Virus record (IMG/VR): IMGVR_UViG_3300015265_000023 | Location: 1 to 21,912 of that record | Source: a virus | Length of the DNA: 21,912 bases | Direction: 5' to 3' (one strand) | Shown here: one piece after another, positions 4,573 through 18,485 of the stretch | How positions within the stretch are numbered: position 1 is the first letter of the stretch | Layout of the letters: each line of letters opens with the position of its first letter | The notes under the pieces: generated by a model | What the model saw: the letters and a program-made list of their open reading frames with translations, nothing else | Databases searched by the model: none | Told to the model about the DNA's origin: nothing | Translations under genes and position numbers: made by a program

Positions 4573-5109
4573 ATGAGTTGGGAGAGTGTTTCGTTTTGGA
4601 TTGAGCATCACCCTGGGTTGGCGTCATGGGTGCAGGCAGTGGGCTCAATTGCCTCGATCTGGGGGGCATTTGCGATAAGTAACAGACAGCAAAAAACGCA
4701 AGTAAAACTTGCCGAAAGGGTTGCTCGCGAAAAGGCCGATTCTCTTTACGCTGTCATTGAGAATGCGTTTAAAAGTACTTTTACCTTTGGTGAGCGATTG
4801 CAGTCGAAACCGTCCGAGGTGGTTTTCAAGGAGGCCTGGCATCTAATCTACCGCCAGCAGTTGGAGTCTTCTGTTGACTCGCTCAGCAAGCTTCCAGCCC
4901 ACGAACTTGGTGGCTATGAGGCAGTTGGATCGTACATTGCAGTAATGGGCGCACTTACCGACATCGTCCGAAAGGTGAACGCTTATTTTTCATCGAGCGC
5001 GCTTCAGTCTCTGGAGTATTTCTATATGTGCGAAGAGGTTCTAAAACAAGTTCGAATTTTGGAGTCAGGCTGGCTGGGTTTTCAGCAAGCTTCTCGGCGT
5101 AACAAATGA
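4573..5109 (+). CDS. Single-pass membrane protein, unknown function
   Basis: This 178-aa protein has one N-terminal hydrophobic helix at about residues 15-35 (ASWVQAVGSIASIWGAFAIS), followed by a charged, mainly helical domain (QKTQVKLAERVAREKADSLY...). That predicts an inner-membrane anchor with a cytoplasmic helical domain. Proteins of this layout are frequent among prophage accessory genes; I do not know a function. Base composition is richer in A+T than in the methyltransferase gene, and it is the first of three plus-strand genes inserted in a minus-strand region. A GGGGGG-rich ribosome binding site precedes the ATG. It starts 47 bases from the divergent methyltransferase gene, so the two share a promoter region. 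Confidence 0.7.
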   Translation: MSWESVSFWIEHHPGLASWVQAVGSIASIWGAFAISNRQQKTQVKLAERVAREKADSLYAVIENAFKSTFTFGERLQSKPSEVVFKEAWHLIYRQQLESSVDSLSKLPAHELGGYEAVGSYIAVMGALTDIVRKVNAYFSSSALQSLEYFYMCEEVLKQVRILESGWLGFQQASRRNK

Positions 5110-5153
5110 GTGCAACTACAAGGATCCCTCTAGGTATGCGCCTGCCTCGCCGG

Positions 5154-5178
5154 CTGGCGTGATTCGTTGAAGTGAGGT
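5154..5178 (+). repeat. Direct repeat copy 1 (25 bp)
   Basis: CTGGCGTGATTCGTTGAAGT and the following GAGGT match 5981-6005 at 23 of 25 positions. Both copies end in the ribosome binding site of a GTG-started gene, so the repeat covers a whole translation-initiation leader. Confidence 0.7.
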
Positions 5179-5182
5179 GCCT

Positions 5183-5881
5183 GTGTCAGATAAAAATGAG
5201 ATTGGATTAGGGGTTGGTGTGGATACTTTTGTACTAAACGTCGCTGATATGAAATATGCGGGAAAGCCTTTAGAAGACGGAAAAAAGTTCATTATTGTTA
5301 ATGGTGATTCTGATAAACCGATGAAAATACACGTCGATACTGATACTGACTGGGCGGCTCTAAGTCCCAGCATTGCTGGTATTTTAGTTACTCTGCTAGT
5401 TGCATGGCTTACTCTGCGTCTCCAGCGGAGGCAAACTCTTGCAAATTTAAGTGGCTTTCGTCAGCAGTGGATGGCCGAGCTGAGAGCGGTTAGTTCTGAG
5501 TACCTTCAATTGCTGTACAAGATGGCCCTGCGTATTCAGGTGAAACCCGGCTTCAGATCTACGGACGAGTACTTGGAATTATATGAGGCCATGGTGATTG
5601 CGGGGTCTCGATTCGAAATGCTATTGAGTCGAGATGATAACGATACAAAGATTATTGATGATCAGGATCAAAAAATTGTCGACGCAATTGTCGAGTTAAA
5701 GGAAGGGCAGAACTGTGGGTTGATTCTTGATATGCTGGATCAAATGAAACATCTCATCCGAGAGGAACTTGAGTCCGCATGGAATGATATTAAGGTTGAT
5801 GTAGGGCTAAAGACTGATCGATCGGACAACAGAAAGTTAAGTAAAAAATTGGCATCAGCATCTACCCCAGAGATAACTTAA
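5183..5881 (+). CDS. Membrane-anchored protein, unknown function
   Basis: I start at the GTG at 5183 (MSDKNEIGLG), five bases after GTGAGG; an in-frame GTG at 5177 falls inside the ribosome binding site. The 232-aa protein has an N-terminal domain of about 50 residues, one membrane helix (about 58-76, LSPSIAGILVTLLVAWLTL), then LRLQRRQTLANLSGFRQQW and a helical cytoplasmic tail. The pattern of a membrane helix followed by an arginine-rich stretch and FRQ-x-W-x-x-x-LR recurs in many uncharacterised bacterial proteins. Low-GC composition and its place between two copies of a 25-bp repeat suggest it came in as a unit. Possible defence role by context only. Confidence 0.7.
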   Translation: MSDKNEIGLGVGVDTFVLNVADMKYAGKPLEDGKKFIIVNGDSDKPMKIHVDTDTDWAALSPSIAGILVTLLVAWLTLRLQRRQTLANLSGFRQQWMAELRAVSSEYLQLLYKMALRIQVKPGFRSTDEYLELYEAMVIAGSRFEMLLSRDDNDTKIIDDQDQKIVDAIVELKEGQNCGLILDMLDQMKHLIREELESAWNDIKVDVGLKTDRSDNRKLSKKLASASTPEIT

Positions 5882-5902
5882 GAGAGGGCATGACCGATCT
5901 AG

Positions 5903-6049
5903 ATGGCGAACGAGATCGCGCACCTTGTTGTTGAGGTGTTTTATGATTTGAACTTTAAGCCGTTCTCGCTGGCGATCAGCCTGGCGTGTTTCGTTGAAGT
6001 GGGGTATTTGTGTTCGGTCCGGCATGGGGCCGGATTGGAGCGAAGATGA
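5903..6049 (+). CDS. 48-aa hydrophobic ORF overlapping the next gene start
   Basis: This ORF begins MANEIAHLVVEVFYDLNF and continues into a hydrophobic segment (FSLAISLACFVEVGYL), ending GLERR. It overlaps the first 40 bases of the gene at 6010 in another frame. The second copy of the 25-bp repeat lies inside its coding sequence, whereas in the first copy (5154-5178) the same frame carries a stop (SLAC reads LA-stop). It may be a genuine small membrane protein whose tail was duplicated upstream of the neighbouring gene. No strong ribosome binding site is visible. Confidence 0.3.
   Translation: MANEIAHLVVEVFYDLNFKPFSLAISLACFVEVGYLCSVRHGAGLERR
5981..6005 (+). repeat. Direct repeat copy 2 (25 bp)
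   Basis: This copy differs from 5154-5178 at two positions and lies 827 bp from it. It provides the GTGGGG ribosome binding site for the GTG start at 6010. Confidence 0.7.
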
Positions 6050-6741
6050 AGAAGGTTGATCTGAGTGGTCTTGATCCGAATCTGGAGCCAAGCGGTGAAA
6101 AAATCCATCGGCTAGCGCGGATAGGCATTAACGCTTTGCCAGTGGTTGGCGGACCTTTGTTGGAAATTTTCAACTCTGTTCTGGAGTCGCCGCTGAATAA
6201 ACGTCGAACAGAAACGATGATTCAGCTTGGTGAGGTCATTAACGATCTAATAGAGCAGCGTGTAGTGACTGAAGCGGGGCTGCAAGAAAACGATGCTTTT
6301 ATCAGCACTGTCTCAGAGGTCTGTGCGATTTCGCTTAGAAACCACCAAGTCGAAAAACTTGAAGCGCTTCGTAATGCTGTTAAAAATTCCGCACTACCGA
6401 GTTGTCCATCCGATGATCATCGTCAGATGTTCCTGAATTTTGTAGATGTTTGCACCGTCACGCACATCAAAATCTTGCACGTTTTTGATCATCCGGAGGC
6501 ATGGTTTGCTAGTCGAGAGATGGTACTTCCCGGATGGAGCATGGGAGCGATTTCAACCGTTTTGGAGTTCGCACTTCCCGAATTGAACGGGCACGAGCAA
6601 ACGTACAGCATCATTTGGAAGGATCTGTATCAGCGAGGGCTACTGACAACGGACGGTCTGAATACGACCATGAGCAGGGATGGCATGATTGCCGGAAGAA
6701 CAAGCAAGCTTGGTGCAGAGCTCATCAAATTCCTCAGCTGA
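6010..6741 (+). CDS. Widespread uncharacterised helical protein
   Basis: A 243-aa protein starting at GTG 6010 after GTGGGG. Near residues 39-60 it has INALPVVGGPLLEIFNSVLE followed by SPLNKRR, a short hydrophobic hairpin with Gly-Gly. After residue 95 comes FISTVSEVCAISLRNHQVEK and LEALRNAVKNSALP. I recognise this combination from a large family of unnamed bacterial proteins (hydrophobic hairpin, then FISTV...ALRNHQ..KLEALRNAV), but no function is established to my knowledge. The C-terminal part (about 190-243) looks like a small winged or helical domain. Third gene of the plus-strand cassette; it converges with the leftward recombination genes five bases downstream. A membrane-perturbing or defence role is only a guess. 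Confidence 0.75.
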   Translation: MFGPAWGRIGAKMKKVDLSGLDPNLEPSGEKIHRLARIGINALPVVGGPLLEIFNSVLESPLNKRRTETMIQLGEVINDLIEQRVVTEAGLQENDAFISTVSEVCAISLRNHQVEKLEALRNAVKNSALPSCPSDDHRQMFLNFVDVCTVTHIKILHVFDHPEAWFASREMVLPGWSMGAISTVLEFALPELNGHEQTYSIIWKDLYQRGLLTTDGLNTTMSRDGMIAGRTSKLGAELIKFLS

Positions 6742-12820: not shown

Positions 12821-13132
12821 ATGGCGAAGGCGAAAAAACAAGAAAGGCAGGTAGAGCGTCTGGAGATGAGCGGGATTGAAAGGTTGGGGCTTCGCGTGTC
12901 GTCGATGATCAATCACCCCGTAGCGCAGATTCAGCGCTGGGTAACGATCCATCGCCTGGACACGGACGGTGATCGGGAGTGGGTGGAGGTTATGGGACTG
13001 CTAAACGAAACGGACGGCATAGACATGACGTTCAACGACGACGAGTCGGTGACGCTGAAGTGGGAGGCGAGCACCGATGAGGATCGGCCTGTCGAGGTTT
13101 ATGATCCAGTCGAGGAGCCAGCGCCATTTTGA
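12821..13132 (+). CDS. DUF1654 family protein
   Basis: This 103-aa protein contains GIERLGLRVSSMINHPVAQ and a following strand-helix unit ending in VTLKW, the core of DUF1654, a small family known mainly from Pseudomonas and its phages, with no established function. The basic head (MAKAKKQERQVERLEM) precedes the domain, and a short acidic tail follows (DEDRPVEVYDPVEEPAPF). AGGGGG lies upstream of the ATG. It is the only rightward gene at the left control region, divergent from PL, and ends at a strong terminator, so it is a single-gene unit. A TATATA at 12793 could be its -10. Confidence 0.82.
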   Translation: MAKAKKQERQVERLEMSGIERLGLRVSSMINHPVAQIQRWVTIHRLDTDGDREWVEVMGLLNETDGIDMTFNDDESVTLKWEASTDEDRPVEVYDPVEEPAPF

Positions 13133-13909: not shown

Positions 13910-13938
13910 AAAAAGCCCGGCGCTGGGCCGGGCTCTCT
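13910..13938 (+). terminator. Terminator, first copy of a repeated hairpin
   Basis: AGCCCGG (13914-13920) pairs with CCGGGCT (13928-13934) around CGCTGGG, with a 6-A run before the stem. The 25 bases from 13910 are identical to those at 14744-14768. Confidence 0.8.
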
Positions 13939-14679: not shown

Positions 14680-14743
14680 GTTGCCCCCGTGCACTGCGAG
14701 ATGCAGTAGGAGGCTATCGGCGAAGTGCAACGTATCTTGAAAC

Positions 14744-14770
14744 AAAAAGCCCGGCGCTGGGCCGGGCTTT
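14744..14770 (-). terminator. Terminator, second copy of the repeated hairpin
   Basis: AAAGCCCGG (14746-14754) pairs with CCGGGCTTT (14762-14770). It closes the leftward gene set that starts at cI; on that strand the stem ends in a T-run. Confidence 0.85.
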
Positions 14771-14782
14771 AGGCCTATCTGT

Positions 14783-15685
14783 TTATTCCCAAGGGAAGGC
14801 TTGGAGAATGTAGCGAGGTCTACTGCTACCTATTCTTTTGGCATTCACGGTTATCTTAAATGAGCTATAGAGATGTTGATTTATGGCGTTTGGGTTCGGC
14901 ACGTCTCTCTTGATGCTTCCATAAATCACATGACCGTCTACCGTCCTGAACTCAAAGGCTCTTTTGTCTGGTAGAGCTCCAATAAATTCACCTGTAAATG
15001 TTTCAATGCTTTCTTTTATGTTGTCCAGATTGAGTCGCTCCTTGCTGCGTCTCACCTGCTCACTATCAGTGAATTGAAACTTTTTTGTACGCGTGGTCAG
15101 GGAGCAAGATGCTTCATAACTGGATAATTTTCCCAAGAAGTCCGCAACAGCCGTGATAGCCCTATCGGCCAGCCTAGATACCGGCTCAGAAAGTTCTTCA
15201 TCACTTTTTGTTGTGGCTTCGAGAAGCTCGGCTATCAGATCAATTGCCTGAGAAACCGGTGTTGTGCCTTCAATGTCAAGCTGGCGTTCAGCAGGCGCCT
15301 CTTCCAACTGAAAACCAAAAGATCCGAGTGCTGCCCCAGTTATCAGAAGCTGATTGCTGGAACGATTCGGGATGGGGCCTTTGTCCGCTAAGGTTCCGGA
15401 AATCGATGCTGCAATCATAGAGATGGCTTCGCTGAACGCTTGGGTAGCCGAAGTTCCAAACTCAGCTAGAACCCCATGGGTTCCCCAGACAGGAGATCCA
15501 CGATAGGTCAATATGACTTTTGCGGGTTGATATGCATTTCCATTGCTTTGTGCCAGATATGACTTCGCACGCTGAATTCTGGAGTTCAGCGACATGGCCG
15601 TGAGCCTGCTCAAGCCCTTTTTGGAAACCTCTTTTTCAAGGAAGCTGAGCTCGGCGGCGCTATGTAGATACTCATTCCTGTTCAT
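14783..15685 (-). CDS. Partner of NTase-like protein, unknown function (300 aa)
   Basis: This 300-aa protein shows helical N-terminal residues (FLEKEVSKKGLSRLTAMSLN), then SPVWGTHGVLAEFGTSATQAFSEAISMIAASISGTLADKGPIPN with NQLLITGAALGSFGFQLEE, then a helical middle and a beta-rich C-terminal domain (FEFRTVDGHVIYGSIKRD). I recall this G-S/T-P-V-x-G-x-x-G family as a frequent neighbour of DUF6932 proteins, with no known activity. It overlaps the upstream NTase-like gene by 14 bases, has AGGAGC before its ATG, and ends just before a terminator. Lower GC than the flanking phage genes suggests recent acquisition. Two-gene defence or toxin-antitoxin module is an inference from pairing and position. 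Confidence 0.75.
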   Translation of the reverse strand: MNRNEYLHSAAELSFLEKEVSKKGLSRLTAMSLNSRIQRAKSYLAQSNGNAYQPAKVILTYRGSPVWGTHGVLAEFGTSATQAFSEAISMIAASISGTLADKGPIPNRSSNQLLITGAALGSFGFQLEEAPAERQLDIEGTTPVSQAIDLIAELLEATTKSDEELSEPVSRLADRAITAVADFLGKLSSYEASCSLTTRTKKFQFTDSEQVRRSKERLNLDNIKESIETFTGEFIGALPDKRAFEFRTVDGHVIYGSIKRDVPNPNAINQHLYSSFKITVNAKRIGSSRPRYILQAFPWE

Positions 15686-16244
15686 GTGCTAGCTCCTGTT
15701 GACGAGCTTCGAGCAATGCCAGAGCGTCGGCGTCTTGATGTGGTGCGAGGTCTAATTTTAGGAATCCTTTCCACTGTCTAGACCTCCGATGAGACCACAT
15801 GCTGTACCAGTATGCAGACATAGACACCAGGATTTCGGGATCGTCCTGTAGAGACTGGACGTAGAAGTCAACCTTGAATCGTTCTTTAATCCACTCAGTA
15901 TCACCCAAAAGGCGGATTTGTTCCTCAGTTAGCGCATCAAAAAAATCGTCACCTCGGTGAGTGAAGGTGACGACGTCAACATCTCCTGGTGGTCGATGCT
16001 CAATCAGTTCGATGTTTTCTGAAAAGCTGCCATTGAGCCACTGAAAACCCGTATCCATACCCATGAGATGAAGCTCAGCTCGATGAGCTAGATATCCACG
16101 AAGAATTAGACAGCGCTCTGCGCTGGTGGAAAAGCGTTGAATAAGCTGAACTAGATCCGTTTCGTAGGGAGATCTGTTCAAGTCAACGGGATTCAGTTCA
16201 TTTATGGGAGGTAACAAGCCCTCCGCGTTCCATTCAGGAATCAA
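15672..16244 (-). CDS. DUF6932-type nucleotidyltransferase-like protein
   Basis: I start at TTG 16244 because AAGGAGG lies six bases upstream and the resulting N-terminus, MIPEWNAEGLLPPI, matches how DUF6932 proteins begin; a GTG at 16280 lacks such a site. The 190-aa protein carries NGSF (71-74) and GDVDVVTF (87-94), the G-S and D-x-D signature of the nucleotidyltransferase fold, as in MNT-type antitoxins and related enzymes. Acid residues further on (FFDALTEEQI) could supply the third ligand. The family's reaction is not established to my knowledge. It overlaps its partner gene and lies in the group downstream of cI, where lambda keeps rexAB. Confidence 0.75.
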   Translation of the reverse strand: MIPEWNAEGLLPPINELNPVDLNRSPYETDLVQLIQRFSTSAERCLILRGYLAHRAELHLMGMDTGFQWLNGSFSENIELIEHRPPGDVDVVTFTHRGDDFFDALTEEQIRLLGDTEWIKERFKVDFYVQSLQDDPEILVSMSAYWYSMWSHRRSRQWKGFLKLDLAPHQDADALALLEARQQELAHEQE

Positions 16245-16312
16245 TCCCGGCCTCCTTGCTAAATTTAGAAATTCGATCACTTGTGCTTAATGCCGCTATG
16301 CCGCCAGACCAA

Positions 16313-16567
16313 CTACTCCAGCTTCCCCCGCACAATCCTTCCCGCCTTCACCTCATCGGCGTGGCGACGAATCTTTTCTTGCTGAGCCTGCAGTAGAGCG
16401 GAGATCTTCATAATCGCGATGACCTCATCAGGAGATTTGCCTCGACCGGCCATGCTAGTTAGCTCGGCCACTGACCAGCCGATAACTGCACTCGCATCCT
16501 CAAGGTCGTAAAACAGTTCCTGCTGAGCGGTGCGTGGCCCGTCGAGCCCTTGAATGAGATCCACCAT
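16313..16567 (-). CDS. Helical paralog B2 (84 aa)
   Basis: Start set at ATG 16567 (MVDLIQGLDGPRTAQQELFY) after AGAGGT; longer starts (TTG 16597, ATG 16585) are possible and would overlap the gene upstream. The middle is W-S-V-A-E-L-T-S-M-A-G followed by a helix, and the end DEVKAGRIVRGKLE is almost the same as the end of the gene at 16884-17123. It belongs to a set of five related helical-hairpin genes downstream of cI. Unknown function. Confidence 0.65.
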   Translation of the reverse strand: MVDLIQGLDGPRTAQQELFYDLEDASAVIGWSVAELTSMAGRGKSPDEVIAIMKISALLQAQQEKIRRHADEVKAGRIVRGKLE

Positions 16568-16593
16568 CAATACCTCTTCTGCCATGGCAGTCG

Positions 16594-16797
16594 TCAATGA
16601 AGAGTCTTTCGGCTTTCGCCAATCCTGATTCGATCCAGCGCCCGGTTTAGCGAATCCAAGGCATCAAGGAGGGCTTTCGCCTCAGCTTCCCGGCCATCAC
16701 CCCAAAGGCGTTCAGCCATTTTATTCAGGGCTTGGATAGAGTTCTCAATTTCAGCGGCAGTCGCTGCAGCTTTACTTTCAGTCTGCTTCTTCGTCAT
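16594..16797 (-). CDS. Helical paralog A2 (67 aa)
   Basis: Almost identical to the protein at 17376-17579: both share SIQALNKMAERLWGDGRE, AEAKALLDALD-x-LNRALDR and IRIGESR. Two helices joined by a GDGRE turn. Basic N-terminus (MTKKQTESKAAA). The upstream Shine-Dalgarno is poor. Probably a recent duplicate, since the DNA is also very similar. Confidence 0.7.
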   Translation of the reverse strand: MTKKQTESKAAATAAEIENSIQALNKMAERLWGDGREAEAKALLDALDSLNRALDRIRIGESRKTLH

Positions 16798-16883
16798 TGA
16801 GTAACCCGTTTGCAGGGTGTTGCTTGTCTTTCAGTTCCTGGCGCGAATAGATGCTCACCGAACACATGGCCTAAGATCGAATA

Positions 16884-17123
16884 TTAATCAGCGTTGGATC
16901 GCACAATCCTTCCTGCCTTTACCTCATCTACGTAAGCAGTCAGCCGATCCTCGCCAGCATGGAATACTGTGCACATCTTCAGCAATGCTTGGGCATCTGC
17001 TTCATTGCCGGCCAGGCTTGCACGCTCAGCTATTCGCATCAGCTCGACGGCTGACCACTTCAGGTCGGATGCGACACCCTGGAGGTCGCGCTTGAGGTCT
17101 TGCTCTGGCTTACTAAGTCCCAT
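16884..17123 (-). CDS. Helical paralog B1 (79 aa)
   Basis: Start at ATG 17123 (MGLSKPEQDLKRDLQGVASD), five bases after AAGGAG (an ATG one codon earlier is also possible). It contains LKWSAVELMRIAERASLAGNEADAQALL and ends VDEVKAGRIVRSNAD, matching paralog B2. The middle also resembles the A-type proteins (helix, short polar turn, helix). Unknown function; possibly a small DNA- or protein-binding helical dimer. Confidence 0.68.
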   Translation of the reverse strand: MGLSKPEQDLKRDLQGVASDLKWSAVELMRIAERASLAGNEADAQALLKMCTVFHAGEDRLTAYVDEVKAGRIVRSNAD

Positions 17124-17159
17124 CATCACTCCTTGCAAATCGCCGCCACACCAGGTCTT

Positions 17160-17348
17160 TCACCCGGCCATAGCAATTCTCAGCCCCACCGCCGCCTCAA
17201 CAAGCTTCTGCGCCTGCGTTGCGACAGCCCTGGCTCGCTCGGTATCCCCGGCTTCTTTAAGCGCTTTAGTCAAATTGAGCAGATTTTCCACCTCAGTCTC
17301 GATGACGCGGATGGACTTACCTATCGGGTATTGAAGTGTGTGCGCCAT
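17160..17348 (-). CDS. Helical paralog C (62 aa)
   Basis: This is a short helical-hairpin protein: IRVIETEVENLLNLTKALKE, a turn with AGDTER, then ARAVATQAQKLVEAAVGLRI. The layout and the Gly-Asp turn match the A-type paralogs, although identity is low. GAGGG lies upstream of the ATG. Unknown function. Confidence 0.65.
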   Translation of the reverse strand: MAHTLQYPIGKSIRVIETEVENLLNLTKALKEAGDTERARAVATQAQKLVEAAVGLRIAMAG

Positions 17349-17375
17349 GCCATCAACCCTCGTTCCAGACGGTCT

Positions 17376-17579
17376 TCAATGAAGAACTCTGCGACTTTCG
17401 CCGATCCTGATTCGGTCCAGCGCCCGGTTTAACGCGTCTAAGGCATCGAGGAGGGCTTTCGCCTCAGATTCTCGGCCATCACCCCACAGACGCTCAGCCA
17501 TTTTGTTCAAGGCTTGGATAGAGCGCTCTATCTCAGCGGCGGTCACCGCAGCCTGACTTTCCGGCTTTTTCTTCGGCAT
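17376..17579 (-). CDS. Helical paralog A1 (67 aa)
   Basis: First gene after cI in the same direction, 33 bases from its stop. Basic start (MPKKKPESQAAVTAAEIERS), then IQALNKMAERLWGDGRESEA and LNRALDRIRIGESRRVLH. Near-identical to paralog A2. If cI is transcribed in the lysogen, this gene and those beyond may be too, unless an unseen terminator intervenes. Confidence 0.7.
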   Translation of the reverse strand: MPKKKPESQAAVTAAEIERSIQALNKMAERLWGDGRESEAKALLDALDALNRALDRIRIGESRRVLH

Positions 17580-17612: not shown

Positions 17613-18485
17613 CTACACCAGGTGAGCATTCCAGACCAGCAGCACCCGTGCCTGGATGAAGGTTTCATCGGCCCTAATCGTTTGCGGGGGATGCCTCTCG
17701 TTATCGGAAAGCATCTTGATCTGATCATCGCCGATCCACTGAAGGCGCTTGATGTACAGGTGCCCCTCCCAAGAGAACATGTAGATCCCATCGCCGACAA
17801 ATTCACGAATGCTGACGTCGACAAGCAACGGGTCACGGTGCTTTATCGTCGGCGCCATCGACTGGCCCCAGCCTGTCACCATCTTCAGGTGAAAGTGCTC
17901 TTTGAACTCAATGCCCATCTCGCGCAGATGCTGAGGGCTGACGCGCACATCCTGAAACATCTCGGGGTAGTCGTGTGGGATCTGGCCACCACCCATCGCG
18001 GCGCGGACGTCGTAATGCGCGATCCACACCTCATCGCCCACCGCGCCGGGGCGGTAGTAGTCGAGCTCAATTGCGCCGCCGCCGTCATCTGCTTCGGCCG
18101 CCGCAAGCAGCCGCCTGCGGGACTCCTCAGACAAACTCTTTCCCTGCTTTTCGAGCATCTGCCGAACCATGTCCGCGGCAGACCCACTCTGTGATGGAGC
18201 ATTCGTCTGATCTGCAGCACCTGTCAGGCCACTGATTTCGGCCGCCAGACGCTTGCTGAACTTCTCAATGGGCACATCAAGCAGGCGTGACAATACCGCC
18301 GCAAACTTCACGTTTAGCGGGTTGGTCCCATTCAGATACATCGCGACCGCTGCGGAAGAAATATCAGCCGCTTCTGCGAGGCTGGCTTGAGTCAAACCGA
18401 GGGCGTTCTTTTTCGATACGAAAAGCGCCTTTGCAGCGTCGCACTCAGCTTTCAGTTCTGGGGAGAGTTCTTTCTTTCTGCTCAT
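17613..18485 (-). CDS. CI-like phage repressor (HTH + S24 peptidase)
   Basis: A 290-aa repressor that should hold the lysogenic state by binding operators at both control regions. The N-terminal XRE helix-turn-helix lies at about 28-60 (ALGLTQASLAEAADISSAAVAMYL). The S24 domain has the catalytic Ser209 in TGWGQSMAPT and Lys246 in GHLYIKRLQ, so it should undergo RecA-stimulated self-cleavage. AAMGGGQ (162-168) may be near the cleavage site, but the exact bond is not clear. Larger than lambda CI (237 aa) because of a longer linker. Its ATG lies only a few bases from the predicted PRM start, so the message would be nearly leaderless, as in lambda. Confidence 0.93.
   Translation of the reverse strand: MSRKKELSPELKAECDAAKALFVSKKNALGLTQASLAEAADISSAAVAMYLNGTNPLNVKFAAVLSRLLDVPIEKFSKRLAAEISGLTGAADQTNAPSQSGSAADMVRQMLEKQGKSLSEESRRRLLAAAEADDGGGAIELDYYRPGAVGDEVWIAHYDVRAAMGGGQIPHDYPEMFQDVRVSPQHLREMGIEFKEHFHLKMVTGWGQSMAPTIKHRDPLLVDVSIREFVGDGIYMFSWEGHLYIKRLQWIGDDQIKMLSDNERHPPQTIRADETFIQARVLLVWNAHLV

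Follow-up and report, generated by a model that had tools for sequence, protein, structure and literature searches.

A DUF6932 nucleotidyltransferase and its partner protein as a candidate defence switch behind a temperate phage repressor

In this study we describe a two-gene module of a temperate phage, in which a small nucleotidyltransferase of the DUF6932 type (NT) is followed by a 300-residue partner of a nucleic-acid-binding type (PT), and we conclude that the pair is probably an uncharacterised defence switch. Both genes lie in what we call the window, the whole 21,912-nucleotide stretch of the IMG/VR record IMGVR_UViG_3300015265_000023. The reading that we favour, with somewhat less than even confidence, is that NT and PT constitute an anti-phage cargo module which is expressed in the lysogen from the rex/bstA slot and in which NT nucleotidylates or holds, and thereby restrains, the effector PT. 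A lysogen-expressed defence or toxin-antitoxin module had been proposed in the initial annotation of this DNA. The layout, the location and the known defence genes in the slot of sister phages agree with that proposal, whereas we infer expression, defence by the pair, nucleotidylation of PT and the role of PT as effector.

The pair spans positions 14783-16244 of the minus strand. The 190-aa NT gene (15672-16244), assigned as a DUF6932/PDC-M63A-like nucleotidyltransferase by Pfam, PHROG and PADLOC profiles, start comparison and a structure model, overlaps the 300-aa PT gene (14783-15685; phrog_18731 match, alignment, model and OB matches) by 14 bp (15672-15685, from the ORF coordinates), which is likely to couple their translation; in relatives the overlap measures 1-20 bp, mostly 4-14 bp. 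The longest open reading frame of NT begins with GTG at 16280. We place the start at TTG 16244 because NT relatives have AAGGAGG and then TTG or GTG at the equivalent position, and because several homologues carry in-frame stops just upstream of it; in the window this Shine-Dalgarno sequence lies at 16251-16257 of the minus strand and is kept with its TTG or GTG start in the close clade. Downstream, the pair ends at an intrinsic terminator (14746-14770, minus strand) with a 10 bp stem, seven GC pairs and a T-rich tail. At 0.479 (NT) and 0.477 (PT), the GC content of the two genes is below that of cI (0.574) and of the window (0.559). The initial annotation had thus been right about the coordinates, strand, overlap and start, about the lower GC of both genes and about the strong terminator. 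No promoter was recognised in the window sequence in front of NT-PT, and the layout suggests that the pair is transcribed together with cI in the lysogen. A second terminator, at 13914-13929 of the minus strand and 0.8 kb from the first, has an identical GGCCCAGCGCCGGGCT core; one of the two follows NT-PT and the other lies beyond a Gly-zipper gene, and the matching cores could possibly provide homology for cargo exchange. Elsewhere in the window, at 4573-6741 on the plus strand, three low-GC genes (0.49, 0.43 and 0.49) run against the surrounding strand, and Pfam, NCBIfam and PADLOC gave no credible family for any of them; this region is possibly a second cargo island.

For NT, a nucleotidyltransferase fold is confidently predicted. 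NT matches PF22014 (DUF6932) at 1.5e-28, with 100.4 bits against a curated cut-off of 27, and belongs to phrog_9194. Its putative catalytic residues are G72 and S73, D88-x-D90 and a third aspartate, D126, with GSX14DXD spacing across residues 72-90. In the iterated family alignment GS and DxD are invariant (91/91) and the third aspartate is kept in 81/91 sequences. The structure model (pLDDT 93) aligns best with PDB chains that are nucleotidyltransferases, namely AadA (Z 5.7; 3.9 Å over 111 residues), 2rff (4.9) and 1ylq (4.8); AAD(9) and kanamycin nucleotidyltransferase are further matches, and MNT antitoxins stand lower in the list. With Z at most 5.7 these fold matches are weak but consistently of the nucleotidyltransferase class, and NT combines the core fold, GS, DxD and third carboxylate of that superfamily. 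The initial annotation had read a G-S ... D-x-D signature in this DUF6932-type protein and had made its idea of a module depend on a predicted nucleotidyltransferase fold, on conserved acidic residues and on the two genes being found together. The family match, the model and the alignment bear out the signature, the fold and the acidic residues.

PT is a full-length match to the uncharacterised phrog_18731 (1.5e-103) and matched no Pfam family. In its structure model (pLDDT 88), the C-terminal ~80 residues (about 220-300) adopt a predicted OB fold with SSB, RPA and IF1-like matches at Z 6-9, and the N-terminal part is helical/alpha-beta with a GSFGFELEE-type hairpin (signature ITGTAxGSFGFELEE). 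The PDB fold search of PT hit the OB domain only and found no fold for the N-terminal domain, and a PDB sequence search with the NT and PT profiles gave no usable relative; BAG matches at 0.05 in the latter were judged to be chance. Neither an obvious catalytic motif nor an invariant tyrosine that could serve as acceptor is apparent in the PT alignment. Among viral structure models PT comes closest to a DUF6575 protein (E 4.5e-12), and a validated E. coli defence system includes a protein of the DUF6575 family (PMC9519451). Pfam DUF6575 matched 0/35 PTs, and a search for DUF6575 in genomes returned two weak partial matches, too few for a profile comparison. DUF6575 proteins and PT are therefore alike in model structure and unlike in Pfam profile, and we regard the resemblance as a lead only.

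The pairing of NT and PT is far beyond chance. PT lies directly downstream of NT in 40/40 viral NT loci, even where NT identity falls to 38%, and the whole locus collection contains no full-length PT that lacks NT or an NT remnant. The two genes do occur together, which is what the module idea of the initial annotation required. Plasmid relatives of PT from Bradyrhizobium, Paraburkholderia and Methylobacterium likewise have a DUF6932 gene directly upstream. Apparently free-standing PTs in L010/L070 and L069 were rejected as short decayed fragments, L098 was rejected as a case of NT without partner since a PT remnant follows its NT, and L105 runs out at the contig edge. In annotated phage records, tblastn gave no hit for NT, for PT or for a distant PT, and our evidence is therefore drawn from IMG/VR, genomes and plasmids. 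Moreover, purifying selection is strong on NT and PT alike: relative to near relatives, dN/dS does not exceed about 0.05 for NT and 0.02 for PT, and the PTs of the window and of the contig L011 differ by a dS of 0.28 with zero amino acid changes.

Broken copies bear on the polarity of the pair. L005, where the catalytic core is deleted, and L065/L081, with a frameshift, have a broken NT beside an intact PT; the reverse, a broken PT beside an intact NT, is seen in L043/L158, through a frameshift around residue 181, and in L098, where PT stops after about 55 residues. Such copies exist both ways, so it seems either that NT and PT each lack strong toxicity by themselves in their present setting or that the broken operons are silent. 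If free PT is toxic, an intact PT beside a broken NT would be surprising, except where PT is no longer expressed, and the two genomes of this kind would fit a reversed arrangement, in which NT is a toxic effector that transfers nucleotides onto an essential RNA or protein, as AbiEii or MenT-like enzymes do, and PT is the antitoxin or a nucleic-acid sensor acting through its OB domain. The only recognisable catalytic centre of the pair is that of NT, the constraint on PT is extreme, and DUF6932 proteins also occur in toxin-first order with short XRE proteins of antitoxin type. We keep this arrangement as a serious rival but consider it less probable than our preferred model, given the loci in which NT remains intact beside a broken PT and given that the MNT relatives of NT are antitoxins (PMC7641770). 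In addition, the similarity to AbiEii is negligible: the window NT has no AbiEii match, a single one of 35 relatives reaches 0.029, and PT has no AbiEi match in PHROGs, Pfam, NCBIfam or PADLOC. Copies broken in either gene with the other gene retained could also mean that neither protein is toxic alone and that NT and PT act as a complex, both being needed and the nucleotidyltransferase activity being triggered only by infection. Obligate pairing and a slot rich in defence genes are consistent with such a complex. However, we have only two broken cases in each direction, and relics that are no longer expressed would give the same picture; we rate this explanation as somewhat less likely again, although a serious rival too.

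In the window, the CI-type repressor (17613-18485, minus strand; HTH_3 and Peptidase_S24 domains in Pfam) lies upstream of the pair on the same strand. The gap between cI and NT is about 1.37 kb, so the pair is not immediately adjacent to cI, and five small ORFs of 67, 62, 84, 67 and 94 aa (16313-17579, minus strand; ORF list and PHROGs) lie between them. These ORFs are in part tandem duplicates: on the same strand, 16594-16797 matches 17376-17579 with 83% identity over 204 bp, and 16313-16597 and 16884-17138 both belong to phrog_6388. An S24 (CI-type) repressor is present in 29/34 viral contigs with either pair type and is found on the same strand and <1 kb upstream in 26/29, with 38-991 bp between the end of the repressor domain and NT in these 26 contigs; NT starts were approximated for nine of the 34, and viral contigs are non-independent samples. 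The rex position of the initial annotation, downstream of cI on the same strand, is accordingly found in the window and, across divergent phages, in these contigs. The repressors beside the pairs are mostly unrelated, with a median identity of 23% and 1/300 pairs above 80%. NT, PT and the terminator form an exchange block (14739-16360, minus strand) that is shared at 94.9% with L011, at 83% with L012 and, slightly shorter, at 81% with L013, and the adjacent repressors of all three differ from that of the window. In L011 the pair is 98-100% identical to that of the window at the protein level, CI is 14% identical, and the DNA similarity in the region is confined to the block. Conversely, L023 has a CI that is 89% identical and an NT that is 55% identical to those of the window. 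With the same pair beside an unlike CI in one case and a similar CI beside an unlike NT in the other, cassette and repressor exchange independently while the position stays.

Comparison within the lineage of the window likewise marks the slot behind cI as an exchangeable cargo site. The slot is bounded by cI and a facing 103-aa gene (12821-13132, plus strand; lineage comparison), ranges from 57 bp (empty) to 5.9 kb and holds 147 cargo clusters in 118 distinct examples, a few of which were included for carrying the pair. Empty slots, with 57-64 bp between cI and the facing gene, are seen in L184, L201, L222 and L244. Cargo of sister phages includes BstA (3.9e-119, L290), HEC-04 (5e-220, L310), RmrA (1e-63, L186) and a PD-Lambda-5_B-type methyltransferase (1.6e-110) beside an AAA protein in L288. 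BstA is encoded downstream of the repressor in synteny shared with RexAB and acts by abortive infection (PMC8585504), as does RexAB of P. putida, which is encoded two genes beyond its CI (PMC12894663). Other cargo consists of HigB-like, DUF4411 and peptidase genes, and most of the 147 clusters are without family. Genes that bear no resemblance to defence are thus carried here too, and NT-PT might instead be moron-like cargo that serves lysogeny or host fitness, for example by tuning repressor expression or through host RNA metabolism. A deletion of the related PDC-M63AB pair in its native host, E. coli NILS69, had no defence effect with a small panel of virulent phages (PMC12409345), which is consistent with such a role and counts against our preferred model. 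The pair stands behind unrelated repressors, however, which speaks against a role tied to one repressor, and homologues occur on plasmids outside prophages, one of them beside a ubiquitin-like/ThiF cluster; we find a non-defensive role distinctly unlikely.

The family is already among the candidate systems of PADLOC (PDC-M63AB, unproven), a point absent from the initial annotation. The window NT matches PDC-M63A at 6.2e-12, as do 35/35 aligned relatives at their own scores, and canonical members score higher, at 9e-33 to 1e-44. For the window PT there is no PADLOC match, PDC-M63B models included, at E up to 1; PDC-M63B matches 10/35 PT relatives weakly (best 2.2e-6), compared with 1e-54 to 1e-137 for the canonical PDC-M63AB pairs of Pseudomonas (L074, L078, L079), and PT is linked to canonical partners by the iterated profile alone. 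The two systems are alike in having a DUF6932 protein followed by a partner of ~300 aa, in their overlapping ORFs and in their frequent place directly behind a prophage repressor. They differ in that the window NT has an extra ~30 aa and the motif YWYSMWSH (residues 145-152), which marks its clade, and in that the window PT escapes all PDC-M63B models. Since the NT tree separates the window type and the canonical type into supported groups (99/98 and 95/88), NT-PT is a divergent sister of PDC-M63AB, and we file it by sequence as a variant, not a member, because PT lacks a PDC-M63B match.

A survey of DUF6932 partners in about 1,000 genomes revealed further associations, each a group of its own: XRE-peptidases related to PD-lambda-2B, short XRE proteins, a Fic gene next door, C-terminal fusions with an alpha/beta hydrolase look and, at the fringe, MNT-type proteins with HEPN-like genes. 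PF22014 grades into these MNT-type proteins, whose HEPN-like partners come next in the same gene order with overlapping ORFs, and L115 is over the cut-off. An XRE protein follows DUF6932 in L073, L088, L092, L093 and L099; that of L073 has a peptidase domain (PD-Lambda-2_B, 4e-81), and the nucleotidyltransferase/XRE-peptidase pair is apparently undescribed. In PD-lambda-2 the XRE-peptidase is toxic alone and is rescued by the upstream gene (PMC9519451), and we therefore dropped this partner as a sign that NT is a toxin. Short XRE proteins of antitoxin type are paired with DUF6932 in L106 and L112. In two Pseudomonas loci (L084, L085) a Fic-family gene (SoFic, 3.5e-12) is divergent from the DUF6932 gene. 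The fusions (L082:1420-2676 and L083:763-1944) contain HGI and AHSFG motifs, their hydrolase reading comes from sequence appearance, and L083 had no match in a PDB sequence search. On a Bradyrhizobium conjugative plasmid (L056), a distant NT-PT adjoins a multiubiquitin/ThiF/DUF6527 cluster and a VPA1262-type gene, a setting that is defence-island-like. It is conceivable, although we are doubtful, that DUF6932 is a modular nucleotidylation switch across anti-phage systems, a single small scaffold with clade-specific partners (OB-fold, HEPN-like, XRE-peptidase, short XRE, Fic or fused hydrolase-like domain) that is installed behind temperate-phage repressors as a defence cartridge.

With HEPN-MNT (HepT/MntA) type VII toxin-antitoxin modules, NT-PT shares a small nucleotidyltransferase with GS..DxD and a third aspartate and an overlapping operon partner. 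MntA adenylylates its toxin by means of GSX10DXD (PMC7641770), whereas NT has GSX14DXD, and the MNT partner is a HEPN protein with RX4HXY, whereas PT has a predicted OB fold and its alignment shows no conserved RX4HXY. Membership in HEPN-MNT consequently fails even if the principle is shared. RexAB of lambda and P. putida resembles NT-PT in being a gene pair that follows cI in the same orientation and in its predicted lysogen expression, but consists of a DNA-binding sensor and a membrane channel (PMC12894663), and scans of PHROGs, Pfam, NCBIfam and PADLOC gave no RexA or RexB relatives of NT or PT. BstA, a prophage defence gene downstream of the repressor that fills the same slot in L290, is a single KilA-N-like protein with no nucleotidyltransferase.

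Our preferred model is therefore one of a restrained effector, a type-VII-like switch, which we favour because the two genes are obligately paired and overlap, because NT is akin to MNT proteins, and because several other DUF6932 partners look toxin-like, among them Fic and the XRE-peptidase, for which PD-lambda-2 is a helpful precedent. NT, an active MntA-like nucleotidyltransferase, would be translated first, bind the coupled PT and either transfer a nucleotide to it or hold it in a complex, which would keep PT inactive in the lysogen. Infection may then disturb the pair, for example through host takeover, nucleotide depletion or phage nucleic acid bound to the OB domain, and the released PT could attack nucleic acid or translation and so abort the infection. 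In favour of this model we count the pairing, the repressor-linked position, the mobility of the block, the defence genes in the slot, the invariant nucleotidyltransferase motif, the OB fold and the low dN/dS; against it we count, in addition to the null deletion, the loci with broken NT and intact PT, the missing catalytic motif and invariant tyrosine in PT, the short antitoxin-type XRE partners and the missing promoter.

Finally, strong positional selection acts on the slot behind cI, as the reinsertion of the same cassette beside unrelated repressors shows. If NT-PT is a defence module, it would extend the immunity cargo that temperate phages carry beside their repressors by a nucleotidyltransferase/OB-fold chemistry and would supply a concrete, testable mechanism for the unproven PDC-M63 of PADLOC. 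With 147 cargo clusters in 118 distinct slots of the lineage of the window, the region behind cI is a hunting ground for new lysogen-expressed defences.
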